Assembly: GCA_013043965.1 (NCBI GenBank)
Contig: JABEVF010000024.1
Coordinates: 1-36,036 of the forward strand
Origin: Gallionella sp.
Lineage (GTDB): Bacteria > Pseudomonadota > Gammaproteobacteria > Burkholderiales > Gallionellaceae
Reading direction: 5' to 3'
DNA: 36,036 nucleotides
Positions 238 through 12,209 of this stretch are shown here, piece by piece. Made by a program: the position numbers and the translations under genes. The notes beneath the pieces are model-generated. The model had not been told where the DNA came from. It was given only the letters and a program-made list of their open reading frames with translations, and ran no database searches. Position 1 is the stretch's first letter; each line of letters begins with the position of its first letter.

Positions 238-1893
238 GTGAAAGCTGGAACCACTGAATTGATCGTCGCGCCAAAACTACCCGCCAGACTCTCATGCTCG
301 GCCATCGCGATTGCGTTCGCGCTGGCCGGTTGCGCCGTCGGCCCGGATTTCAAACGACCCGCCGCGCCTGAGGCAAGCAGTTACTCGCCCAAGCCCATGC
401 CCGACACGACGACTTCGGCAGCGGTGCTGGCGGGAGAAGCGCAACACTTCAACCCGCAAGCGGACATTCCTTTCGACTGGTGGACATTGTTCCAGTCACC
501 ACAGATCAACTCGCTGATCCAGCGCGCGTTCAACGCCAATCCCGACGTCGAATCCGCGCAAGCCGCATTGCGCCAGGCACAGGAATCCGTGATCGCCCAA
601 CAGGGGTTCTTCTACCCCACCGTCAGCGCGAGTTACTCGCCGTCACGGAATAAGCTGGCGGGCAACATGGGCGGCAACTCGCCCGGCATACAGGGCAATG
701 GCACAATCGTTCAAACTTATGCCAATCCCGCCGGCCCGGTGTTCAACGGGCCGACCTATTACAACTTTCATGTCGCGCAATTGACGGTGGGCTACGTGCC
801 GGATGTGTTCGGCCTGAACCGCAGACAGGTCGAATCCGCGAAGGCCCAGCTAGCCGCGCAGAAACTGCAACTGGAAGCGACCTATATCACGCTGGCCGCC
901 AACGTGGTCGCCGCCGCCATACAGGAAGCGTCGGTGCGCGCGCAGATTGCGGCATTGGAACGTATCGTCGCGATCAACCAGGAGTCACTGGGTATTCTGC
1001 GCAATCAGGCCAAGCTCGGCTATGTTTCCGGGATGGAAGTCGCAGCTCAGGAGTTTTCGCTGGCATCGGCGGAACAAGCACTGATCCCTTTACAGAAGCA
1101 ACTGGAACAGACCCGCAACCTGATCCGCGCCCTGGCGGGCAATTTGCCGAATGAAGATGTGGCGGAGACCTTCGATCTTGCCAGCCTGCATCTGCCGCAG
1201 GAACTGCCCTTGAGCCTGCCCTCCAGGATCGTCGAACAACGTCCCGACGTGCGTGCCGCCGAAGAGCAAATGCATTACGCCAGCGCGCAAGCGGGGGTTG
1301 CCATCGCCAACACCTTGCCGCAATTCGCGATCGCCGCGGGCGTGGGCGGCATGGCCACCACGCCCGACTGGATGTTCCGCACCGGCGGTGGTTTCTTCAA
1401 TCTCGCGGCCAGCGTAAGCCAGACCATCTTTGATGGCGGCACCTTGCACGCCCGATCTCGTGCGGCCGGGCAGGCACTGATACAGGCCGGTGCGCAATAC
1501 CGCAGCACCGTCATCACCGCGCTGCAGAATGTCGCCGACACGCTGGTTACGATTCAGTCCGATGCCGATTTGTTGAAGGCCGCTGCCAAGACCGGGTTAG
1601 CCGCGCAGACCATGTTCGATCTGAGCCGCAAACAATATCAGGCTGGCCAGATCGACTACCTGACCCAGCTCGTCGCCGAGCAGAACTTCCAGCTGGCGAC
1701 CCTCAATCTGGTGCAGGCACAAACCAACCGTCTCGGCGACACGGCCGCGCTTTATCAGGCACTGGGTGGCGGCTGGTGGAATCGCCCGGCAGCGGATGCC
1801 ACTCGCACCACCACACCCGATACCCAATCGCAAGCAGCGGCTTCATCCGGCGTACCGCCGACTTCTTCGGCAAATGGAGAACATGTTCAATGA
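238..1893 (+). CDS. RND efflux outer-membrane lipoprotein, NodT/OprM (CzcC-like) family
   Basis: Outer-membrane channel of a tripartite RND efflux pump; trimers form the exit duct joined to the adaptor and inner-membrane pump encoded next. The 551-residue protein starts at GTG 238 (an in-frame stop lies 60 bases upstream with no ATG between; TTG 259 is an alternative). It has a lipoprotein signal with lipobox LAGC, Cys32 being the likely lipidation site, followed by the family-typical CAVGPDFKRP. Two outer-membrane efflux (OEP) repeats follow, with the usual Ala/Gln-rich coiled-coil helices and the signature RPDVRAAEEQ near residue 335. The C-terminal ~35 residues are a Thr/Ser-rich tail. Its TGA overlaps the ATG of the adaptor gene (ATGA at 1890-1893), indicating translational coupling in one operon. 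The family is certain; the exported substrate is inferred to be metal from the pump downstream. Confidence 0.93.
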   Translation: MKAGTTELIVAPKLPARLSCSAIAIAFALAGCAVGPDFKRPAAPEASSYSPKPMPDTTTSAAVLAGEAQHFNPQADIPFDWWTLFQSPQINSLIQRAFNANPDVESAQAALRQAQESVIAQQGFFYPTVSASYSPSRNKLAGNMGGNSPGIQGNGTIVQTYANPAGPVFNGPTYYNFHVAQLTVGYVPDVFGLNRRQVESAKAQLAAQKLQLEATYITLAANVVAAAIQEASVRAQIAALERIVAINQESLGILRNQAKLGYVSGMEVAAQEFSLASAEQALIPLQKQLEQTRNLIRALAGNLPNEDVAETFDLASLHLPQELPLSLPSRIVEQRPDVRAAEEQMHYASAQAGVAIANTLPQFAIAAGVGGMATTPDWMFRTGGGFFNLAASVSQTIFDGGTLHARSRAAGQALIQAGAQYRSTVITALQNVADTLVTIQSDADLLKAAAKTGLAAQTMFDLSRKQYQAGQIDYLTQLVAEQNFQLATLNLVQAQTNRLGDTAALYQALGGGWWNRPAADATRTTTPDTQSQAAASSGVPPTSSANGEHVQ

Positions 1894-3044
1894 TCAAGAT
1901 GGAAAAAAAACTCGTTGTGTCGGCCATCATTTTGTTGCTGGTTGCGGCGGGCGGCTACTGGGGCTGGCAGCGCTCCCATCCCGCCAATAACGCGAGCGAC
2001 AAACCCGCACCCCGCAAGTCATCCGATACGCTGCACTTCGATTTGAATGCACCGCAACTGACCTTTTTGCAGATCAAGCCCGCCGAGGCGTTCCCCGAGC
2101 CGCTGGTGGAAGCCCTCAACGCCCGCATCGCTTATGACGACAACCACACCGCGCGGATCTTCTCGCCCCTCGCCGGACGGGTGGTCAAGATCGCTGTCGA
2201 GGCCGGGCAGCACGTCAAAGCCGGAGATGTGCTGTTGCAACTGGATTCGCCGGACTATGCCGCAGCCGCCTCCGACTATGCAAAGGCCGAGGCCGATCTG
2301 AAATACAAGAAGCAGGCATACGAGCGCGCCAAACAATTGTTCGACACGCAGGGCATCGCCCGCCGCGACCTCGAGTCCGCCGAAGCAGACTGGCATCAAG
2401 CCGAGGCCGAGGCGCTGCGCACCAAGGCCCGCATGAACTATCTGGAGAGCATCGCAAAGACCACGGACGGCCAATTCAAACTGCGCGCCCCGATAGCCGG
2501 CATCATCAGCGAGCGTCAGGTCAATGCCGGCAGCGAGGTCAGGCCGGATGCCGCGAATCCGCTGTTCGTCATCACCGACCCGCAACACCTGTGGGTGCTG
2601 ATCGATCTTCCGGAACGCCAGCTCGACAAAGTCAAAGTCGGTCAGCCGGTATTCGTCGAGGTCGATGCTTATCCCGATGAGATTTTCTATGGTCGCGTGA
2701 CCGTGGTCGGGGCCACGCTGGATCCGCTCACGCGCCGGGTGCAGGTGCGCTGCTATCTGAGCAACCCGGAACACAAGCTGAAGCCGGAGATGTATGCGCG
2801 CGTGACGCCCGATGTGGACAATGAAGCCCATCTGCCGCGCATCCCCAATTCCGCGCTGTTCACCCAGGGCGTGTCCAGCTATGTCTTCGTCGAACTGTCC
2901 CCCGGCGTGCTGCAACGCCGCAAAGTCGAGCTCACCCTGCAGGACCATGAATACAGTTTTGTGAAACAAGGTTTAAGTACCGGTGAGCGCGTGGTCACGA
3001 GCGGCGCTTTGCTGCTGAACTCAGAGCTGTCCGGCGAAAACTGA
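1890..3044 (+). CDS. RND efflux periplasmic adaptor (membrane fusion protein, CzcB/CusB-like)
   Basis: Periplasmic adaptor linking the RND pump to the outer-membrane channel. The frame is open upstream to 1776, but ATG 1890 is preferred: it overlaps the previous stop and has GGAGA at 1876-1880. The resulting 384-residue protein begins MIKMEKK, then a single membrane anchor at about residues 8-27. It has a biotinyl-lipoyl (barrel-sandwich) half beginning SPLAGRVVKIAVEAGQHVKAG, a coiled-coil hairpin rich in Ala, Glu and Lys, the second lipoyl half (APIAGIISERQVNAGSEV), and beta-barrel and membrane-proximal domains. This is the HlyD/CzcB architecture. No His/Met-rich N-terminal metal-binding stretch is apparent. 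It lies between the channel and pump genes in the C-B-A order typical of heavy-metal RND operons. Confidence 0.93.
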   Translation: MIKMEKKLVVSAIILLLVAAGGYWGWQRSHPANNASDKPAPRKSSDTLHFDLNAPQLTFLQIKPAEAFPEPLVEALNARIAYDDNHTARIFSPLAGRVVKIAVEAGQHVKAGDVLLQLDSPDYAAAASDYAKAEADLKYKKQAYERAKQLFDTQGIARRDLESAEADWHQAEAEALRTKARMNYLESIAKTTDGQFKLRAPIAGIISERQVNAGSEVRPDAANPLFVITDPQHLWVLIDLPERQLDKVKVGQPVFVEVDAYPDEIFYGRVTVVGATLDPLTRRVQVRCYLSNPEHKLKPEMYARVTPDVDNEAHLPRIPNSALFTQGVSSYVFVELSPGVLQRRKVELTLQDHEYSFVKQGLSTGERVVTSGALLLNSELSGEN

Positions 3045-3089
3045 GATCGCGAAGACATAAACCGCAGGGAATAGAATGCCAAAAACAAG

Positions 3090-6000
3090 ATGCTAGACAA
3101 ACTCATCACCTTTGCGCTGCAACAGCGCGTATTCGTTCTCAGTGCCAGCCTGGTGCTGGTCATCTTCGGCTGGTACGCTTGGGAAAACCTGCCTATCGAA
3201 GCCTTCCCCGATGTGCAGGATGTGCAGGTGCAAGTCGTCACCCAGGGTCTGGGTCTGGCCCCGGAAGAAATCGAGCGCAATGTGACCTTGCCCATCGAGC
3301 GCGAGATGAGCGGCGTGCCGCGCATGACCCAGTTGCGTTCGGTCTCCATCACCGGCCTGTCCATCGTCACGCTGACCTTCTCCGATAACACCGACGATTA
3401 TTTCGCCCGCCAGCAAGTGCTGGAAAAACTGCAAAACGTCACGCTGCCCAATGGCATCCAGCCCAGTATCGCGCCCCTCACCAACGCGGTCGGCGAGGTC
3501 TATCGTTACGTGCTGGATACGCCCGCCGACATGCCGGTACAGGACGTGCGCGTCCTGCAGGACTGGGTGATACGCCCCGCGTTGCGCACCGTCCCCGGCG
3601 TTGCCGATGTCAACAGCTTCGGCGGGGTCATCAAGGAATACCAGGTTCACGTCAACCCGTCGCTGCTGCGCAAATTCAATGTCACGCTGGACCAGGTTTC
3701 GCAAGCACTGGCCAACAATAGCTCGAACAGTGGCGGCGGCGTTTTACGGCGCGGCGATGAAGCGCTGGTGATACGCGGTATCGGCTTGTTTCAGACACTG
3801 GATGACATCGGGCGCGTTGCCGTCGTCACGCAGGGGGGCCGGCCCATCCTGGTTCGCGAAGTGGCATCGGTCGCCATCGGCGCGCGTCCGCGCTCCGGCA
3901 TCGTCGCCTTCAACGAGCGCGACAACGTGGTGCAGGGCATCGTGCTGATGACCAAGGGGCAGAACGCCACCAAAGTCGTCGCCGGCATCAAGGCCAAGAT
4001 AGAGGCGCTGCAGCACAAGCTGCCGCCCAACGTCAAACTGGTCCCCTATTACGACCGCACCGACCTGGTCAAGCACACGGTGCATACCGTAGTCGACAAT
4101 CTGCTGGTTGGCGCGCTGCTGGTGGTATCCATCCTGGTGATCTTCCTGCGCAACTGGCAAGCCGCGCTGGCCGTGGCCGCGGTGATTCCGCTGTCGCTGT
4201 TGTTCGCTTTTGTGCTGATGGATATGCGCGGCGTATCCGCCAACCTGATCTCGTTGGGCGGGGTGGACTTCGGTATCATCATCGACAGTGCCGTCGTGCT
4301 GGTCGAAGCGCTGATGGTGAAGCTGGCTCTCGGCAATGCCGGACAATTCCCGCATCACGCCAACTATTCCTGGCGTGTGCACACCTTGAAAAATACCGCG
4401 CTGGAACTGGGTCGCCCCATCCTGTTTTCCAAAGCCATCATCATCCTCGCCTTCCTGCCGATCTTCACTTTCCAGCGCGTCGAGGGCAAAATCTTTTCGC
4501 CCATGGCTTTCACGCTGACCTTTGCCCTGCTCGGTGCGATCCTGCTGACGCTCACGCTGGTCCCGGTGTTGGTGAGCTATGCGATGAAGAACGGCGATCT
4601 CGCGGAAAAACACAGCAGCTGGATGAGCGCATTGCAGCAGCGTTATCGCCGCTTGCTGGCCTGGGGTGAGACACGGCGCAAACCTATCGTGACTGTTTCG
4701 GTGGTGCTGCTCGCGATCACGCTGCTGCTTTCGCCGCGCCTCGGCAGCGAGTTCCTGCCCAAGCTCGACGAGGGCAACATCTGGCTGACTATCACCCTGC
4801 CCCCCTCCACCGCGATTGATAAGACCAAAGAAATCGAACGCCGGGTGCGCAAGATTCTGAACGACTACCCCGAGGTGAATAACGTCACCACGCAAGTCGG
4901 ACGGCCCGATGACGGCACCGATCCGAAAGGCGTGAACAATCTGGAGATAATGGCCGACCTGAATCCCAAGGACACCTGGAAATTCGCCGACAAGGAAGCG
5001 TTGATCACCGACATGGAGAAAAAGATCCACGACATCCCCGGTGTGCCCACCAACTTTTCGCAGGTGATAGAGGACAATCTGGAGGAAGCCCTGTCGGGCG
5101 TGAAAGGCGAGATCGCGGTGAAAATCTACGGTCCCGACCTGGAGATACTCGAGGACAAGAGCGAACAGATCGCCAACGTGCTGCGCAGCATACGCGGCGC
5201 GACCGATGTGGCCGCCATCAAGATCGGCGGGCAAAGCGAGCTGAATATCGTGATGAACCGCGAACAGATGGCGCGCTACGGCATCAACGTCAACGATGTG
5301 AACAGCACCATACAGACCGCGCTGGGCGGCACTGCCGTCAACGCGTTCTTCGAGGGGGACAAACGCTTCGACGTGACCGTGCGTTTGCAGGCGAGCTATC
5401 GTGACGCGGTGGACGATGTCGCCGACCTGCCGATCAATTTGCCGAACGGTAACGGCACGATCCCGCTGGGCGAGATCGCCAAGGTCGAGATCAAACAAGG
5501 CGCGGGGCGTATCAGCCGCGAGAACGGCGGCCGCCTGGTCGCAGTGAAAGCCAATCTGCTCGGTCGCGACCAGGGCGGCTTCGTCGCCGAGGCGATGGAA
5601 GCGGTCACAGACCAGGTCAAACTCCCCCCCGGCTACAGCATCACCTGGGGCGGCCAGTTCGAGAACCAGCAACGCGCTTTGGCGCGGTTGAAGATCATCG
5701 TCCCGCTCTCGGTGCTGATGATCTTCGTGCTGCTGTTCTGGGCGTTCCGTTCGATGATGAAAGCGCTATTGGTGATGCTGATGGTACCGTTCACCATCAT
5801 CGGCGGCCTGGCGGGCCTGGGCCTGGCGGGCCTGCATCTGTCGGTGTCGGCGGCGGTGGGCTTCATTGCCGTGGCGGGCATCTCGGTGCAGAACGGCGTG
5901 ATCATGGTCGAGCAATTCATGGAGATCATGCTCAAGGGCAAGGGTTTGAAAGAAGCGGTCGTGGAAGGCGCGGTGCTGCGTCTAAGACCCATCCTGATGA

Positions 6001-6191
6001 CCGCATTGATGGCCGGGCTGGGCTTGCTCCCGGCAGCGCTCTCGCACGGCATCGGCTCGGAAACCCAACGTCCGTTTGCGGTGGTGATCGTGGGCGGTAT
6101 CGTCACCGGCACTTTGTTCACCCTGCTGCTGCTGCCGATGTTGTACCCGCTGTTCGCCGATGAGGCACGCCATACAAACATAGTCGAGTAA
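3090..6191 (+). CDS. Heavy-metal-type RND inner-membrane efflux pump (CzcA/CusA family)
   Basis: Proton-driven inner-membrane pump, 1033 residues, the usual size for the HME-RND family. The start MLDKLITFALQQRVFVLS matches the family N-terminus. Two groups of six transmembrane segments alternate with two large periplasmic loops. The fourth-helix signature DFGIIIDSAVVLVE places acidic residues at D393, D399 and E406, the same spacing as the proton-relay residues of CzcA. A Ser replaces the Gly usually following the second Asp. The second half has the matching VGFIAVAGISVQNGVIMVEQF. Forty-five bases separate it from the adaptor gene. Family knowledge says such pumps export Zn/Co/Cd/Ni or Cu/Ag; which metal cannot be decided from the sequence. 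No adjacent metal-responsive regulator or two-component system is visible. Confidence 0.93.
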   Translation: MLDKLITFALQQRVFVLSASLVLVIFGWYAWENLPIEAFPDVQDVQVQVVTQGLGLAPEEIERNVTLPIEREMSGVPRMTQLRSVSITGLSIVTLTFSDNTDDYFARQQVLEKLQNVTLPNGIQPSIAPLTNAVGEVYRYVLDTPADMPVQDVRVLQDWVIRPALRTVPGVADVNSFGGVIKEYQVHVNPSLLRKFNVTLDQVSQALANNSSNSGGGVLRRGDEALVIRGIGLFQTLDDIGRVAVVTQGGRPILVREVASVAIGARPRSGIVAFNERDNVVQGIVLMTKGQNATKVVAGIKAKIEALQHKLPPNVKLVPYYDRTDLVKHTVHTVVDNLLVGALLVVSILVIFLRNWQAALAVAAVIPLSLLFAFVLMDMRGVSANLISLGGVDFGIIIDSAVVLVEALMVKLALGNAGQFPHHANYSWRVHTLKNTALELGRPILFSKAIIILAFLPIFTFQRVEGKIFSPMAFTLTFALLGAILLTLTLVPVLVSYAMKNGDLAEKHSSWMSALQQRYRRLLAWGETRRKPIVTVSVVLLAITLLLSPRLGSEFLPKLDEGNIWLTITLPPSTAIDKTKEIERRVRKILNDYPEVNNVTTQVGRPDDGTDPKGVNNLEIMADLNPKDTWKFADKEALITDMEKKIHDIPGVPTNFSQVIEDNLEEALSGVKGEIAVKIYGPDLEILEDKSEQIANVLRSIRGATDVAAIKIGGQSELNIVMNREQMARYGINVNDVNSTIQTALGGTAVNAFFEGDKRFDVTVRLQASYRDAVDDVADLPINLPNGNGTIPLGEIAKVEIKQGAGRISRENGGRLVAVKANLLGRDQGGFVAEAMEAVTDQVKLPPGYSITWGGQFENQQRALARLKIIVPLSVLMIFVLLFWAFRSMMKALLVMLMVPFTIIGGLAGLGLAGLHLSVSAAVGFIAVAGISVQNGVIMVEQFMEIMLKGKGLKEAVVEGAVLRLRPILMTALMAGLGLLPAALSHGIGSETQRPFAVVIVGGIVTGTLFTLLLLPMLYPLFADEARHTNIVE

Positions 6192-6313
6192 TCCATAGCA
6201 TCGCAGCAAATCAACATCGTGCTGTCGGCATCGGCGACTCGCTGCCGCAATGGGTTACCTCGACGCTGACCGCTGGAGCCGACGCGAAATGCGGTGGGAT
6301 GGCAAAAAACAAC

Positions 6314-6342
6314 TTTACGGAACAACCGCCTTTTGTTATGTT
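6314..6342 (+). promoter_or_regulatory. Candidate sigma-70 promoter of the mgtA leader transcript
   Basis: TTTACG (6314-6319) resembles the -35 box (4 of 6), then a 17-base spacer and TATGTT (6337-6342) as the -10 box (4 of 6), preceded by TG one base upstream, an extended -10. Transcription would begin near 6349, about 25 bases before the start codon of the leader ORF. Prediction by eye only. Confidence 0.4.
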
Positions 6343-6373
6343 GCGCGCCGTTTCGTTATGTGGAGGTATCCCG

Positions 6374-6439
6374 ATGGATACGTGTTCTGGTCATTGTAGT
6401 CATTACATCCCGACGGTTGGCATACTCCCGGCAAGATAA
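6374..6439 (+). CDS. Candidate 21-residue leader peptide upstream of mgtA
   Basis: An ATG at 6374 follows a near-perfect Shine-Dalgarno, GGAGG at 6362-6366, with a 7-base spacer, and opens a 21-codon frame ending TAA at 6437-6439. The peptide begins MDTCSGHCSHYIP and ends LPAR; it has two Cys, two His and two Pro codons. It lies between the candidate promoter and two hairpins in the 424-bp gap before the Mg2+ ATPase gene. In enterobacteria, mgtA is controlled by a leader with a short Pro-containing ORF (mgtL) whose translation decides between hairpins. This peptide does not resemble MgtL in sequence, so the analogy is positional and structural only. Translation and a regulatory role are inferred. 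Confidence 0.45.
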   Translation: MDTCSGHCSHYIPTVGILPAR

Positions 6440-6458
6440 CCGCACAGCACCATCCTGT

Positions 6459-6508
6459 CGCTATCTCGCCGAGAGCGAGATAGCGTTCCCACCCAGAGCC
6501 TTGCTCTG
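6459..6508 (+). promoter_or_regulatory. Two hairpins in the mgtA 5' leader
   Basis: An 11-bp perfect stem (CGCTATCTCGC at 6459-6469 with its complement at 6475-6485, 5-base loop) starts 20 bases after the leader ORF. It is followed by a 6-bp stem (CAGAGC 6494-6499 with GCTCTG 6503-6508). Neither is followed by a T-run, so they are not ordinary intrinsic terminators. They are more likely regulatory structure in a leader that runs another ~107 bases to mgtA. Apart from the promoter and short ORF listed, I see nothing else definite in 6192-6615. Confidence 0.45.
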
Positions 6509-6615
6509 ATCGTATACCTTCTCATCGCGCCCGGAGACAAGCTGGATCTGCTGTCGCCCCGGTCGTTATTGCCGACCTCTTACACACGCTGTATATCAAG
6601 CATAGAGGGGGAAGC

Positions 6616-9381
6616 ATGAGCCCGATTTTTGTTAAGGAATTCTTCGCGGGGTTTATTCGCACCCGCGCCATCAGCCGTCACTTCCGGCGGCTCGCGATAC
6701 TCGACGCGATCAGAGGCACGACGGTCGCGCGCGACGTTCCTTCCGCGCTAGGTCACACCTTGACGGACGCGGCCTATAGCGCGGTAGATCCGCTGCTGGC
6801 CGGGCTGGACAGTCATCTCGACGGCTTGTCCGAGACCCAGGCGGAGCTGATCCGCGCGCGCGTCGGCACCAATGAGGTCGAGCATGAGAAGCCGCTCCCG
6901 GCCTGGCTGCATCTTTGGCATTGCTACAAGAACCCCTTCAGCCTGTTGCTGACGGTGCTGGCCGCGATCTCTTTCTTCACCGAGGACATCAAGGCGACCA
7001 TCGTGATTTCCGCCATGGTGGTGCTGGCCACGTTCATCCGCTTTGTCCAGGAAAGCCGCTCCAACAATGCGGCGGACAAACTCAAAGAGATGGTGAGCAA
7101 TACGGCGACCGTGCTGCGCCGCGACCCCGCGCAGGACGCCGCCGAGGAAGCGCGCCGCTATTTCAATGTGGTGCTTCACCCGAAAGGGCCGCGCAAGGCC
7201 GAGATCGCCATCAAACTGTTGGTGCCCGGCGATCTGGTGCTGCTGTCGGCGGGTGACATGATCCCCGCCGATCTCCGCATCCTGTCGGCCAAGGATCTGT
7301 TCGTCAGCCAATCGGCGATGACGGGCGAATCCATGCCGGTGGAAAAATTTGCCGCCCAGCGCGTCGCCGATGTCGGCAACGCCATCGAGCTAGACAATAT
7401 CCTGTTCATGGGTACCAACGTGGTCAGCGGTTCGGCCAAGGCAGTGGTGATCGCCACCGGCGGCAACACCTATTTCGGTGCGCTGGCGCAACGGGTGACC
7501 GCCACCACGCGCACCCTGACTTCCTTTCAGGCCGGGATCAACAAGGTCAGCTGGTTGCTGATCCGTTTCATGCTGGTGATGACCCCGGTGGTGCTGCTCA
7601 TCAACGGCTTTACCAAAGGGGATTGGCTGGAGGCCTCGCTATTCGCTTTGTCGGTGGCGGTGGGTCTGACACCCGAGATGCTGCCGATGATCGTCACCAC
7701 GACGCTCGCCAAAGGCGCGGTGGTGTTGTCGCGGCAAAAGGTAATCGTCAAACGCCTGGATGCGATCCAGAACTTCGGCGCCATGGACGTGTTGTGCACC
7801 GACAAGACCGGCACCCTGACCCAGGACAAGATTTTTCTCGAACGCCACACCGACGTGTTCGGGCAGGCATCCGACACGGTGCTCAATTACGCTTACCTGA
7901 ACAGCTATTACCAGACCGGTTTGAAAAATCTGCTGGATGTGGCGGTGCTGGAGCATGTGGAAGTTCACCGGGAACTATCCATCAACACGGCGTTTTACAA
8001 GGTCGACGAGATCCCTTTCGACTTCGTGCGCCGCCGGATGTCGGTGGTGGTTGCCGAACAGGACGGGCAACATTTGCTGATCTGCAAAGGGGCGGTGGAA
8101 GAGGTGCTCGCGATATGCGGCCAGGTCCGGCATGGCGACCAAGTGGAACCGTTGCAACCCGACGTGTTGGCGCGTATCCGCGCCGTGACCGCCTCCTTGA
8201 ATGAGGAGGGCTTGCGGGTCGTCGCGGTCGCGGCAAAAGAAATGGCCAGCCCCAATATTTCGTACAGCGTTGCCGATGAAAACGCATTGACGCTGATCGG
8301 CTATATCGCCTTCCTCGACCCGCCCAAAGAATCCACCGCGCCAGCCATCAAGGCCCTCAAAGAGCATGGTGTGACCGTCAAGGTATTGACCGGTGACAAC
8401 GAGCTGGTGACGCTCAAGATCTGCCGCGAAGTGGGGCTGCGGATAGAGGGGGTGCTGCTGGGCGCGCAGGTCGAAGATATGCCCGAAGCAGCGTTGGCGG
8501 AGCGGGTCGAGCAGTGCAACATTTTCGCCAAGCTGACCCCCGCCCACAAAGAGCGCATCGTCCAGGCACTGCGCCGCAACGGCCACGTGGTCGGGTTCAT
8601 GGGGGACGGCATCAACGATGCGCCGGCACTGCGCGCCGCCGACATCGGCATCTCGGTGGATACCGCAGTGGACATCGCCAAAGAAGCGGCGGATATCATC
8701 CTGCTCGAGCGCAGCCTGATGGTGCTGGAAGAAGGCGTGATCGAAGGGCGCAAGACCTCGGCCAACATGCTCAAGTACATCAAGATGACCGCCAGCTCGA
8801 ATTTCGGCAACGTGTTCTCGGTGCTGGTGGCGGGCGCATTCCTGCCGTTTTTGCCGATGCTGCCGCTGCATCTGCTGGTGCAGAACCTGCTGTATGATTT
8901 CTCCCAGATCGCCATCCCGTTCGATAGCGTGGACGAGGAACAGGTCAAACATCCGCAAAGCTGGAGACCGGATGACATAGGCCGCTTCATGATATTTTTC
9001 GGGCCTATCAGCTCGATATTCGACATCGCCACGTATTGTCTGATGTGGTTCGTGTTCTCCGCCAATACGACGGATCAGCAAACCCTGTTCCAGTCGGGTT
9101 GGTTTGTCGAGGGACTGATGTCGCAGACATTGGTCGTGCATATGATACGCACGCAAAAGATCCCTTTCATCCAAAGCAAACCCAGCTGGCAATTGATGGG
9201 CGCGACGATATTGATCGTCACCGCCGGGATCTTTCTGGTGATGGGGCCGTATGCGAGCTACTTCAAACTGCAAGCTTTGCCGCCGATTTACTTCGTGTAT
9301 CTGTCCGTCATCCTGCTGGGTTATATGCTGCTGGCCCAAGCCATGAAAGGCATCTACACCCGCAAGTATGGCTGGCAATAA
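6616..9381 (+). CDS. mgtA: Magnesium-translocating P-type ATPase, MgtA/MgtB type
   Basis: P3B-type ATPase that imports Mg2+ across the inner membrane. It has 921 residues (enterobacterial MgtA/MgtB are about 900). The ATG at 6616 has GAGGGGG just upstream. In order it shows an N-terminal cytoplasmic segment; the cation-ATPase N domain; the actuator motif TGES; the phosphorylation motif DKTGTLT with the phosphorylated Asp at 396; the nucleotide-binding KGA; TGDN; and the hinge GDGINDAPALR. C-terminal membrane helices follow, including the MgtA-like NLLYDFSQIAIPFD. A 424-bp leader precedes it, consistent with leader-mediated control as in other mgtA genes. The OprB-like porin gene begins 72 bases downstream on the same strand and may be co-transcribed. 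Confidence 0.95.
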   Translation: MSPIFVKEFFAGFIRTRAISRHFRRLAILDAIRGTTVARDVPSALGHTLTDAAYSAVDPLLAGLDSHLDGLSETQAELIRARVGTNEVEHEKPLPAWLHLWHCYKNPFSLLLTVLAAISFFTEDIKATIVISAMVVLATFIRFVQESRSNNAADKLKEMVSNTATVLRRDPAQDAAEEARRYFNVVLHPKGPRKAEIAIKLLVPGDLVLLSAGDMIPADLRILSAKDLFVSQSAMTGESMPVEKFAAQRVADVGNAIELDNILFMGTNVVSGSAKAVVIATGGNTYFGALAQRVTATTRTLTSFQAGINKVSWLLIRFMLVMTPVVLLINGFTKGDWLEASLFALSVAVGLTPEMLPMIVTTTLAKGAVVLSRQKVIVKRLDAIQNFGAMDVLCTDKTGTLTQDKIFLERHTDVFGQASDTVLNYAYLNSYYQTGLKNLLDVAVLEHVEVHRELSINTAFYKVDEIPFDFVRRRMSVVVAEQDGQHLLICKGAVEEVLAICGQVRHGDQVEPLQPDVLARIRAVTASLNEEGLRVVAVAAKEMASPNISYSVADENALTLIGYIAFLDPPKESTAPAIKALKEHGVTVKVLTGDNELVTLKICREVGLRIEGVLLGAQVEDMPEAALAERVEQCNIFAKLTPAHKERIVQALRRNGHVVGFMGDGINDAPALRAADIGISVDTAVDIAKEAADIILLERSLMVLEEGVIEGRKTSANMLKYIKMTASSNFGNVFSVLVAGAFLPFLPMLPLHLLVQNLLYDFSQIAIPFDSVDEEQVKHPQSWRPDDIGRFMIFFGPISSIFDIATYCLMWFVFSANTTDQQTLFQSGWFVEGLMSQTLVVHMIRTQKIPFIQSKPSWQLMGATILIVTAGIFLVMGPYASYFKLQALPPIYFVYLSVILLGYMLLAQAMKGIYTRKYGWQ

Positions 9382-9411: not shown

Positions 9412-9431
9412 GCCGACATCGCGATGTCGGC
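9412..9431. repeat. Perfect 20-base palindrome between mgtA and the porin gene
   Basis: The arms GCCGACATCG (9412-9421) and CGATGTCGGC (9422-9431) are exact reverse complements with no spacer. It lies 30 bases after the mgtA stop and 22 before the preferred porin start. As RNA it would form an 8-bp stem with a CGCG loop, and no T-run follows. It could be a protein-binding operator or an attenuating hairpin. Confidence 0.5.
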
Positions 9432-9453
9432 CAAACGAATTTGGACATACGCC

Positions 9454-10836
9454 ATGAAAAAAATATTGATGCTGGCTCTGCTCGCCATGCTGCCGTGCCT
9501 CGCGCACGCCGGACCATCCGAGATTATCCTGGCTGCGGCCGATGTCTCGCCAGCGGCTCAACTTTCGCCCGATACGCCCATGCAGGGTGTTCCACAAGCA
9601 TGGGGCATATACGGTCAATTTACCGGTGTCAGCCAGGCGCACCCGGGTTTCACCTCGCCCTATCAAGGGGCGAACAGCCTAAGCCCCAATAACAGCAGTG
9701 CCGAAACGACCGATCTCACGCTGTTTGCCGGTGGGAGTATCTGGAGCGGTGGCGAGTTTTGGATCAACCCGGAAATCGATCAAGGGTTCGGTTTGTCCAA
9801 CACGGTGGGTTTGGCCGGTTTTTCGAGCGGCGAAGCCTACAAGGTCGGCGCAAACTCGCCCTATCTGCGCCTGCCCCGCGCCTTTTATCGGCAGACCCTC
9901 AATCTGGGCGGCGCAGAGCAAACCATTGCGCCGTCCACCAACCAGATAGAGCGAACCCAATCTGCCGACAACATCGTTCTGACGTTGGGCAAGTTCTCAG
10001 TGGTGGACATCTTCGATACCAATAGTTACGCGCACGACCCCAGGTCCGACTTCATGAACTGGTCTATTGTGGACGCGGGGGCATTTGATTATGCGGCCGA
10101 TGCGTGGGGGTTCACCGAGGGTGCATCCGCAGAATGGACACAATCCTGGTGGACGGTGCGCGGCGGATTTTTCAGCCTGTCCCAGACCCCGAATTCGACA
10201 GTGTTGGACCGAACCTTCACTCAGCACGAATGGGTCGGCGAGCTGGAGGAAAGACACCGGTTGTGGGACCATCCGGGCAAGGCAAAGCTACTGGGTTTCA
10301 TCAACCAGGGCTATATGGGAAGCTATGCCGACGCGTTGCGTCTTGCAAGACAGACCAACAGCACGCCGAGTACGGCACTGGTGCGCCGCTACAGTTCGCA
10401 ATCCGGGTTCTCGCTCAACCTAGAACAGGAGTTTTCTGCCGACATGGGGGGATTTGCGCGGGTAAGCAAGAACCAGGGCAACAATGAGGCGTTTGATTTC
10501 ACCGAAATCAATCAGTCGGTATCCGCAGGGCTGTCTCTGAAAGGCGATCGTTGGAGCCGCCACGATGACACATTTGGCTTGGCCGCGGTCGCCAACGGAT
10601 TATCCGGCGCGGCACGCAGTTATTTTGCGGCAGGAGGGATCGGCATATTGATAGGTGACGGGCAGCTTCCGCATTACGGCATGGAGAAGATCATGGAGAC
10701 TTATTATGCCTATTCCGTGCGCGCGGTGAATCACTTGACCCTTACCCTGAACTATCAATACGTGGTCAACCCGGCCTACAACCAGGACCGGGGGCCGGTC
10801 TCGATTATCGGCGCCCGATTGCATGTAGAGTTTTAA
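9454..10836 (+). CDS. Outer-membrane porin, carbohydrate-selective OprB family
   Basis: A 460-residue outer-membrane beta-barrel. The start at 9454 gives a clean Sec signal peptide (MKKILMLALLAMLPCLAHA). An in-frame ATG at 9424 sits within a palindrome and would add ten residues before the signal. The mature protein has the alternating strand pattern of OprB-type porins, with conserved-looking blocks FWINPEIDQGFGLSNT, GEAYKVGANSPYLRLPRAF, GKFSVVDIFDTNSYAHDPR and FMNWSIVDAGAFDYAADAWG. The end RGPVSIIGARLHVEF finishes on Phe as expected for barrel assembly. Family members are annotated as carbohydrate porins, but the true solute here is unknown; position after mgtA makes a role in cation or general solute uptake possible. 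It converges on chrA with 20 bp between. Confidence 0.85.
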   Translation: MKKILMLALLAMLPCLAHAGPSEIILAAADVSPAAQLSPDTPMQGVPQAWGIYGQFTGVSQAHPGFTSPYQGANSLSPNNSSAETTDLTLFAGGSIWSGGEFWINPEIDQGFGLSNTVGLAGFSSGEAYKVGANSPYLRLPRAFYRQTLNLGGAEQTIAPSTNQIERTQSADNIVLTLGKFSVVDIFDTNSYAHDPRSDFMNWSIVDAGAFDYAADAWGFTEGASAEWTQSWWTVRGGFFSLSQTPNSTVLDRTFTQHEWVGELEERHRLWDHPGKAKLLGFINQGYMGSYADALRLARQTNSTPSTALVRRYSSQSGFSLNLEQEFSADMGGFARVSKNQGNNEAFDFTEINQSVSAGLSLKGDRWSRHDDTFGLAAVANGLSGAARSYFAAGGIGILIGDGQLPHYGMEKIMETYYAYSVRAVNHLTLTLNYQYVVNPAYNQDRGPVSIIGARLHVEF

Positions 10837-10856: not shown

Positions 10857-12209
10857 TTACGCTACAAGAGTCTTGTAAACCAACCCGGCCGCCGCACAGG
10901 CGGCGATAACTTCGATGACACCACGCTGATAACGGAACAGCGCGCCAGCCGCCGCCAGCGCAATCAGAGCCGAGGCGCTATCGAACGCCCCCGCAAAACC
11001 TTTTGGCCACAGCACGTGATAGCCGAAGAACAGGACCAGGTTCAAAATGACTCCGACGACCGCCGCCGTTATCGCGGTGAGCGGGGCGGTGAACTGGAGA
11101 TTGCCGTGCGTCGCTTCGACCAACGGGCCGCCCGCCAAAATGAAAATGAATGACGGCAAAAAAGTGAACCAGGTCACCAGGGTCGCCGCCAGCGCACCCG
11201 CCATAAACAACATGTCCGGCCCGAACACAGCCTTCACATAGCCGCCCACAAAACCGACAAAGGCCACCACCATGATGAGCGGCCCCGGCGTGGTTTCGCC
11301 GAGTGCCAGACCGTCCATCATCTGGGCGGTCGTGAGCCAGCCGTAATGCCCTACCGCACCCTGGTAGACGTAGGGTAATACCGCGTAAGCCCCGCCAAAC
11401 GTCAGCAGCGCGGCCTTGGTGAAGAACCAGCCCATCTGCGTCAGCGTGTGATCCCAACCAAATTCCGCCGTCAATAATGCCATTGGCAGCAACCACAGCA
11501 AGCTACCGGCCAGCACCACTTTCACCAGCCCGGACCAGCGAAAGCGCGCATGTTCCGGAGTCGGCGTGTAGTCATCGATCAAGGCCGCGCCGAAAGATTT
11601 ATTAGACTTGCCGTGCCCCCCGCCGGCCTTGAATTTTTCCGGCGCGATGCGCCCGCCCGCATAGCCGATCAATGCCGCCGCCGCAACAATGACGGGGAAG
11701 GGCACGTTAAGCGCGAAGATCGCCAGAAAAGCACACGTCGCGATCGACCATAGCAGACTGTTCTGGAGCGCGCGCGTACCAATGCGGTGCGCCGCCTGGA
11801 GCACGATGGCAGTCACGGCAGGCTTGATGCCATAGAACAATCCGGCCACCAGCGGCACATCACCGAACGCGATATAAATCCACGACAGCGCGATCAGGAC
11901 AAACAGCGAGGGCAACACGAACAACACACCCGCGATGATGCCGCCCCAAGTGCGATGCATCATCCAGCCGATGTAGGTCGCGAGCTGCTGCGCTTCCGGG
12001 CCCGGCAGCAGCATGCAGTAGTTGAGCGCATGCAAAAAACGCTGTTCCGATATCCAGCGTTTTTTCTCGACCAGGTCGTGATGCATGATGGCGATCTGCC
12101 CCGCCGGTCCGCCGAAGCTGATGAGGCCCAGCTTGAGCCAATACCGGAAGGCTTGCGCCAGTGTGACCGGATCTGGTGGCCGGTTATCGCGCGGCGCGTT
12201 GTTGAGCAT
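10857..12209 (-). CDS. chrA: Chromate transporter, ChrA (CHR) family, two-domain form
   Basis: A 450-residue membrane protein with two CHR domains. The N-terminal half has LGLISFGGPAGQIAIMH and PGPEAQQLATYIG; the C-terminal half has the matching LTFGGAYAVLPYVYQ and GLALGETTPGPLIMV. These paired FGG and PGP motifs define the long-chain CHR family, which typically exports chromate by proton-linked antiport. The many hydrophobic stretches fit about ten or more transmembrane helices. The start at 12209 overlaps the 3' end of the HPP gene by 26 bp, so the two are probably co-translated. The family is sure; chromate as the actual substrate is from family knowledge, since many CHR proteins are untested. 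Confidence 0.92.
   Translation of the reverse strand: MLNNAPRDNRPPDPVTLAQAFRYWLKLGLISFGGPAGQIAIMHHDLVEKKRWISEQRFLHALNYCMLLPGPEAQQLATYIGWMMHRTWGGIIAGVLFVLPSLFVLIALSWIYIAFGDVPLVAGLFYGIKPAVTAIVLQAAHRIGTRALQNSLLWSIATCAFLAIFALNVPFPVIVAAAALIGYAGGRIAPEKFKAGGGHGKSNKSFGAALIDDYTPTPEHARFRWSGLVKVVLAGSLLWLLPMALLTAEFGWDHTLTQMGWFFTKAALLTFGGAYAVLPYVYQGAVGHYGWLTTAQMMDGLALGETTPGPLIMVVAFVGFVGGYVKAVFGPDMLFMAGALAATLVTWFTFLPSFIFILAGGPLVEATHGNLQFTAPLTAITAAVVGVILNLVLFFGYHVLWPKGFAGAFDSASALIALAAAGALFRYQRGVIEVIAACAAAGLVYKTLVA

Follow-up and report, generated by a model that had tools for sequence, protein, structure and literature searches.

In attenuators of the trp/his type, the position of the ribosome on a leader ORF selects between overlapping hairpins. 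Leader ORFs for Mg2+ transport have been described from Salmonella and E. coli (PMC11552253, PMC8092293). According to the available text on E. coli and Salmonella mgtA, poor translation of the mgtL ORF at low Mg2+ turns mgtA on, and good translation represses it (PMC11552253). In Salmonella mgtQ, likewise a short ORF, Asp2 and Glu5 are reported to lower translation, and mgtB is controlled through alternative stems (PMC8092293). In work on Pseudomonas aeruginosa the Salmonella leader served as a Mg2+ sensor, and the available part of that report leaves a native leader unmentioned (PMC11218974). Titles and abstract beginnings in the open-licence PMC literature yielded no description of the leader examined here; one may exist elsewhere.

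The DNA analysed, referred to here as the window, is a 36,036-nt stretch from Gallionella sp. Positions 6314-6527 of the window very likely form a translation-read leader of mgtA, which encodes a Mg2+-translocating P-type ATPase (6616-9381; TIGR01524, 1330 bits). This gene and all leader elements lie on the forward strand. An earlier note had placed a promoter-like site, a leader ORF and two hairpins in the 424-bp gap before the ATPase gene (6192-6615), and direct reading confirmed every one of these sequence elements at the same bases. The promoter-like site, TTTACG-17-TATGTT (6314-6342), has its -35 at 6314-6319 and its -10 at 6337-6342, with TG one base 5' of the -10. A Shine-Dalgarno sequence, GGAGG (6362-6366), stands 7 nt 5' of the ATG at 6374, where a 21-codon ORF encoding MDTCSGHCSHYIPTVGILPAR begins (6374-6439, stop included); start codon, frame and stop placement are conserved in the family described below. 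The end of this ORF and the first two bases of its stop codon make up region 1 (GGCAAGATA, 6430-6438), which is complementary to region 2 (TATCTCGCC, 6462-6470). Folding places a small ACAG/CTGT hairpin (6444-6458) so that it lengthens the 1:2 stem. Region 2 can also pair with region 3 (6475-6485), the 3' arm of a perfect 11-bp hairpin, 2:3 (6459-6485; arms 6459-6469 and 6475-6485), which covaries in the family. Further downstream a 6-bp hairpin, CAGAGC-CTT-GCTCTG (6494-6508; arms 6494-6499 and 6503-6508), was read directly; many relatives show by eye some hairpin in this place.

Two further features link the window to the Pseudomonas leaders compared. TTTAC(T/G)-17-TA spacing is found upstream in 21/23 of them, as in the window, and CTTCTCATCG (6518-6527) is common to both: this sequence or a variant occurs at most 110 nt 3' of the element in 23/99 alignment rows, mostly Pseudomonas plus the window. 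A stem that would hide the Shine-Dalgarno sequence, formed in the window by 6 bp of GTATCC/GGATAC, was dropped as a candidate, since by eye relatives did not show it consistently. Directly 3' of mgtA, on the same strand, is the gene for an OprB-family porin of 470 aa (9424-10836; PF04966, no NCBIfam name). The mgtA-oprB pair stands in a metal-handling cluster, with genes for heavy-metal RND efflux (CusA/CzcA type, adaptor and outer membrane factor; 238-6191, forward strand) ahead of it and a chromate transporter gene (10857-12209, reverse strand) behind it.

Taken on its own, the leader region is no more than chance would give; comparison lifts it above that level. The single-sequence folding z-score of 6349-6640 was -0.78, near that of shuffles, and simple promoter and terminator scans of the region gave no match. 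Covariance model R1 was built from 23 rows including the window, chosen with an ATG, GTG or TTG start and, in all but one, a short ORF pattern. Model R2 contained 26 rows; the window was left out, as were the relatives nearest to it (L001, L002 and L179 in all). R2 matched the window at 6357-6489 with 60.7 bits (E 2.8e-17, a rough value), and the next best place scored 7.6 bits; over the window's own genome, R1 found the element once above noise. Alignment A3 was given 100 chosen loci, of which 99 matched (all except L275) and 98 were distinct, the window among them. Its sources were 53 of 69 named matches (16 duplicates or close relatives were omitted), 29 order-level mgtA leaders and others, and the weak or odd loci L006, L067, L168, L169, L175 and L272 were omitted. 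Among these, L006, L168 and L169 represent a further subtype (MDSPYSSSWK, MDSCSSRSSIR and LDSCSCRVVYVH) whose members share the 3' arm GCGGGACGGTGC and score lower with the model; by eye, L006 has a terminator-like site further downstream. Four matches of 24-27 bits (L258, L267, L268, L276), apparently within longer ORFs, were rejected as false.

Rfam searches returned tRNA only for the whole window at the gathering threshold, and three unrelated families for 6150-6700 at E up to 10, with nothing at the leader element in either case. Across 36 relative loci the matches were to cobalamin riboswitch, tRNA and Mn2+ riboswitch only, none of them at the element. The M-box riboswitch was absent from the matches to the window and from those to 6150-6700 (E up to 10). 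We take Mg_sensor to be the Rfam name of the enterobacterial mgtA leader. The window leader belongs to a conserved family that had no Rfam match in the searches made.

The spread of this family was assessed at several taxonomic levels. Within 41 genomes, several close mgtA orthologues had a similar upstream ORF, for example MDTCSSNSSRYTSLVGILLAR in L002 and MGTCSSDSCSQTRSGAASAR in L005, each followed by a stop. R1 gave 30 matches at E <1e-4 in 100 mgtA upstream loci, 23 of them its own rows, and the order-wide scan reached 44, their E values no higher than 6e-6. The mgtA upstream regions read covered nearly all orthologues found in 399 genomes of the order (G280, G419 and G075 excepted); scans of more than 40 genomes used stricter filters, so weak members may be lost. 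Named mgtA loci were limited to the 80 that scored best out of 572 related ones, and the element stood upstream at 69 of these 80: carriers were all 34 Pseudomonas records, Herbaspirillum, Glaciimonas, Dechloromonas and Pigmentiphaga, and, outside those groups, Thermomonas. A class-wide scan of 369 genomes (E up to 0.001) returned the window's own element and one 24-bit match within a long ORF. The Pseudomonas family scan matched 10/119 genomes, one apparently falsely, and in a second family the element was present in 76/195 genomes (92 matches). The element is thus concentrated in Burkholderiales and some Pseudomonas, with single others. When plasmids were searched with a leader from Pseudomonas, a single partial match came up, unannotated and with 37% coverage. 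The proposal that this is an analogous translation-sensing mgtA leader, which loss of the ORF or stems among close relatives would have undermined, survived this comparison: conservation of the ORF frame and of the hairpin extends well past Nitrosomonadales. The leader is real and conserved, and its reach is greater than first supposed.

Several features of the alignment bear on translation of the ORF. Start codons in the 98 distinct members were GTG in 74, ATG in 17, TTG in 7 and CTG in none, and the 75 rows outside R1 gave the same order (57, 12, 6 and 0); the T and G of the start codon were invariant in A3. A Shine-Dalgarno core (GGAG/GAGG/AGGA) was present in 91/98 members. The distance from the start to the column of the in-ORF hairpin was constant modulo three in 96/96 rows having that column. 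Frame 0 was stop-free over the first 9 codons in 98/98 members, and the other frames carried stops in 6 and 87. Indels in family ORFs were of three bases. Measured from the first base of region 1, the stop codon lay at -8 to +7 nt in 96/98 members; in the other frames, with a range of -10 to +9, the counts were 5 and 0. In a codon-substitution test, 14 and 13 of 200 column shuffles did equally well; for the short type, frame 1 had the higher score. Translation of the leader ORF looks constrained across the aligned members, and amino-acid-level selection forms no part of this claim.

The peptides share some composition. An acidic residue occurred in residues 2-9 in 94/98 peptides, compared with 39.9 +/- 4.8 when codon 2-9 bases were shuffled (kinship uncorrected), leaving 4/98 with none in these positions. 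Residues 2-10 held a mean of 3.3 Ser, with Cys in 84/98. A final Ala-Arg was seen in 54/98 and His in 12/98; Pro was absent in 30/98. The window peptide has one acidic residue (Asp) and two Pro. Its Cys and His content, which had been taken to leave room for a signal other than Mg2+ or proline, is incidental, and the pattern is not conserved: the window and L002, whose MgtA is 90% identical, differ at three Cys/His positions, and their leader ORFs differ by 11 codons (3 synonymous and 8 non-synonymous changes). The peptide had also been called unrelated to that of mgtL. It shows no obvious likeness to mgtL, whose sequence was not aligned, yet it does not stand alone, being a member of a large family.

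The key feature of the leader, absent from the earlier note, is that the end of the ORF pairs with the hairpin's 5' arm. In the window, the TAA at 6437-6439 overlaps region 1, and regions 1 and 2 as read from the sequence pair at 8/9 positions. Judged from the aligned sequences, 1:2 and 2:3 are mutually exclusive, because region 2 pairs with either region 1 or region 3, and both covary. The 1:2 pairing, which is not part of the model, was formed in 80.4% of cells, and slid controls reached at most 43.8%. Its covariation score was reached by 0/500 shuffles, its two-sided pair count by 24/500 and its pair-type count by 44/500; one 1:2 pair was unpaired in 52/96 cells. The model structure (2:3 plus the in-ORF hairpin, H1) was paired in 83.0% of cells, compared with at most 53.4% when slid, in an alignment fitted to this structure. 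H1 covaries and was paired in 81.1% of cells over the family; in the window, 3/5 of its modelled pairs are broken. Calculated window energies were -19.0 kcal/mol for 2:3 and -16.3 kcal/mol for 1:2, and the joint segment folds as 2:3. Formation of 1:2 would therefore need co-transcriptional priority, being made first.

The direction of the switch was examined in a different type of mgtA leader, one with a TTG-start ORF, represented by six loci (L091, L093, L094, L101, L102, L103). In these six, the 3' arm of the hairpin holds GAGG four bases 5' of the mgtA start codon, an in-frame ATG, and frame offsets, by hand arithmetic, were -75, -72, -78, -81, -54 and -81, all multiples of three. In 4/6 leaders, 1 to 8 of 200 shuffles were at least as good as the pairing of the stop region with the 5' arm; in L101 and L103 the 1:2 duplex was no better than shuffles. 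As modelled, 2:3 would hide the mgtA ribosome site in the TTG-type leaders and 1:2 would free it. Because region 3 holds the mgtA Shine-Dalgarno sequence in all six, we infer by analogy that 2:3 is the OFF form in the window. TTG-start leaders (LDC..., LEC..., LGS...) tried with R2 gave no match better than E 0.025; they are of similar design and were excluded from all family counts. The LDC... type may be a relative of the window family or an independent invention.

Region 3 of the window ends about 130 nt 5' of mgtA, away from its ribosome-binding site, and the output must therefore be another step. Intrinsic termination was rejected as a general output, with terminator-like sites in 15/98 members. 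In the next 100 nt downstream, C exceeds G in 89/98, compared with 61/96 upstream; this bias in base composition lends mild support to Rho, and Rho-dependent termination is a plausible output in the window. Pyrimidine runs downstream (60/99, against 40 in one shuffle each) were set aside.

To which genes the element belongs was read from adjacency. For the 44 order-level matches, assigned by hand, the following genes were mgtA (31), ABC genes (5), OprB (3) and a CorA-type gene (1), with 4 unresolved. Rows of R1 account for 22 of the 31 mgtA-preceding matches; among the 22 other matches, 9 precede mgtA. The element stands before a fused permease and ABC ATPase in L160, L162, L164, L165 and L167, before an OprB porin in L158, L159 and L169 (where an NRAMP lies behind OprB) and before a CorA-type Mg2+ transporter in L161. 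The four others are L163 and L168, at contig ends, and L166 and L176. In the case of L176 (G045:C308), an identical further copy of the element lies inverted beyond an incomplete mgtA, as an inverted duplication or an assembly error. On the L161 locus (3982-4155), a yybP-ykoY Mn2+ riboswitch accompanies the cluster of element, CorA and CDF; the gene starting at this riboswitch is presumably of the UPF0016 type.

Other gene arrangements extended this picture. In L170-L172 an OprB gene separates the leader from mgtA, and mgtC follows the element in Pseudomonas L273-L275 and Noviherbaspirillum L266. In the second family, 40 of 92 matches were sampled to include second copies, so that the counts are not frequencies: the first gene recognised was MgtA in 13, ABC in 9, OprB in 6, NRAMP in 5, MgtC in 3, a protein of about 240 aa in 3 and none in 1. 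All but one of these 40 (39/40) precede one of ten reference genes. Two NRAMPs tested had 7QIA as their best match (E 9e-50 and 2e-42), other chains giving E values no better than 5e-21 and 1e-18; the available text identifies 7QIA as the magnesium transporter EleNRMT (PMC8806188). The ABC permease of L160, L162, L164, L165, L167, L312, L330 and others has about 580 aa and two permease stretches, and the ATPase after it is of an ABC type with a C-terminal AAA-associated domain; these are often the first genes after the element. L173, L174, L177, L307, L311 and L333 carry a protein of about 240-280 aa (ARPMITDDARI) between leader and mgtA or mgtC, which had no Pfam match (L173) and no NCBIfam match (L307). 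In L272, a weaker match (34.2 bits by R1), no Mg2+ gene was recognised downstream; L272 and L314 are element-like matches before genes matching none of the ten reference proteins. The window OprB porin is 55% identical to that of L169. That the same porin family stands under the leader elsewhere suggests that mgtA and oprB of the window form one operon. As a whole the target set points to Mg2+, and the fused-permease ABC transporter is a candidate Mg2+-linked importer.

These results suggest the following course of events. RNA polymerase would start near 6349, and a ribosome would load at once on the 21-codon ORF. With ample Mg2+, it would complete the ORF and sit on the stop codon, masking region 1 (6430-6438); region 2 would then pair with region 3, and hairpin 2:3 would leave mgtA OFF. 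When Mg2+ is scarce, ribosomes with an acidic residue near the nascent N-terminus would be unstable, as reported for mgtL and mgtQ. Early abort of translation at low Mg2+ would leave region 1 free, and this region, made first, would pair with region 2. Formation of 1:2 would block hairpin 2:3, turning mgtA and the oprB porin behind it ON. We infer Mg2+ as the signal and abort as the trigger; the comparative data support a conserved translated frame, a stop codon placed on region 1, the alternative of 1:2 and 2:3, and Mg2+ genes as targets. A stop-coupled attenuator is highly probable in our judgement, and sensing of Mg2+ through abortive translation is rather likely. The model as a whole, a translation-read attenuator responding to Mg2+ in which abort leads to 1:2 and mgtA ON, we regard as probable.

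Other explanations have to be set against this model. A chance assembly of promoter-like site, random 21-codon ORF and unrelated palindrome would suit the window taken alone, which was unremarkable in its folding z-score and in the simple scans, but it is contradicted by conservation: a model that left the window out still matched it at 60.7 bits, and 369 genomes of the class at E up to 0.001 added to the window's element a single 24-bit match in a long ORF. We give chance almost no credence. Classical amino-acid attenuation, in which stalling at Ser, Cys or Arg codons would report serine, cysteine or redox supply, could draw on the frequency of Ser and Cys early in the peptides (residues 2-10). 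It is nevertheless very unlikely, given that 39/40 sampled matches precede metal-uptake reference genes or their neighbours (Ser and Cys genes lay outside the search) and that the 90% relative departs from the window at three Cys/His positions.

A riboswitch in which the RNA itself binds Mg2+, the ORF being no more than a decoy for ribosome entry or a side effect of RNA conservation, would account for the covarying stems and the Mg2+ gene targets; some ORF codons (AGT) are nearly invariant even at the third base, and the codon-substitution pattern falls short of proving amino-acid selection. For a pure aptamer, however, the avoidance of CTG starts, the three-base indels and the stop at region 1 in 96/98 members would be needless, and neither the window nor the 36 relative loci matched Rfam at the element. 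We therefore think this reading unlikely. The leader might instead sense another divalent metal (Mn2+, Ni2+ or Co2+) or general translation stress. NRAMP and CDF genes are among or near the targets, the window adjoins a CusA-type efflux operon, and loss of bL31 affects mgtL control according to the available text (PMC11552253). Against this, the targets include mgtA, mgtC, CorA-type and NRMT-like genes, and the L161 locus carries its own separate Mn2+ riboswitch; a signal other than Mg2+ appears improbable.

Beyond the window, we see an even chance that one undescribed, peptide-reading Mg2+ switch family governs, in Burkholderiales and some Pseudomonas, a whole regulon for Mg2+ uptake, comprising mgtA, mgtC, CorA-type channels, NRMT-type NRAMPs, the OprB-type porin and the fused-permease ABC transporter. 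If so, the ABC system would by association be a new importer of Mg2+, or a Mg2+-linked one, and the OprB proteins would be Mg2+ porins. The leader would serve as a marker for Mg2+ uptake genes, including the ABC transporter and porins without an assigned substrate. That a distinct family with an attenuator of its own occurs in beta- and gammaproteobacteria, before several kinds of gene, suggests that Mg2+ is widely read through translation. The role of the acidic N-terminal residue also becomes testable where much of the remaining peptide varies.

Compared with described systems, the window leader is like that of mgtL, as far as the available account of the latter goes, in its small ORF upstream of mgtA, in its two exclusive RNA forms (seen in the window family by comparison and energy only) and in the tie between efficient ORF translation and repression, which is proposed here (PMC11552253). 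It differs in having no Rfam match, in the stop codon placed on region 1 and in a family that extends beyond mgtA; its peptide, with one Asp and two Pro, appears less rich in Pro and acidic residues than is reported for mgtL, whose sequence was not aligned. With mgtQ, on the available description, it shares a short ORF, which in mgtQ has Asp at position 2, and alternative 1:2 and 2:3 stems (PMC8092293). In mgtQ, however, that text describes 2:3 as ON, with the mgtB ribosome-binding site hidden by 3:4 (PMC8092293), whereas here 2:3 is proposed as OFF, and region 3 of the window is not at the mgtA ribosome-binding site. A reported copper-linked upstream ORF resembles it, from the part of the report available, as a metal-linked upstream ORF with post-transcriptional control, and differs in serving copper and a three-gene operon rather than Mg2+ genes; the two sequences were not compared (PMC9426467). 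Selection of a hairpin by ribosome position on a leader ORF, as proposed here, is shared with trp/his-type attenuators, but the window family has no general U-run terminator and the targets seen are metal uptake genes. The window leader is a new family of known design, similar to mgtL and mgtQ.
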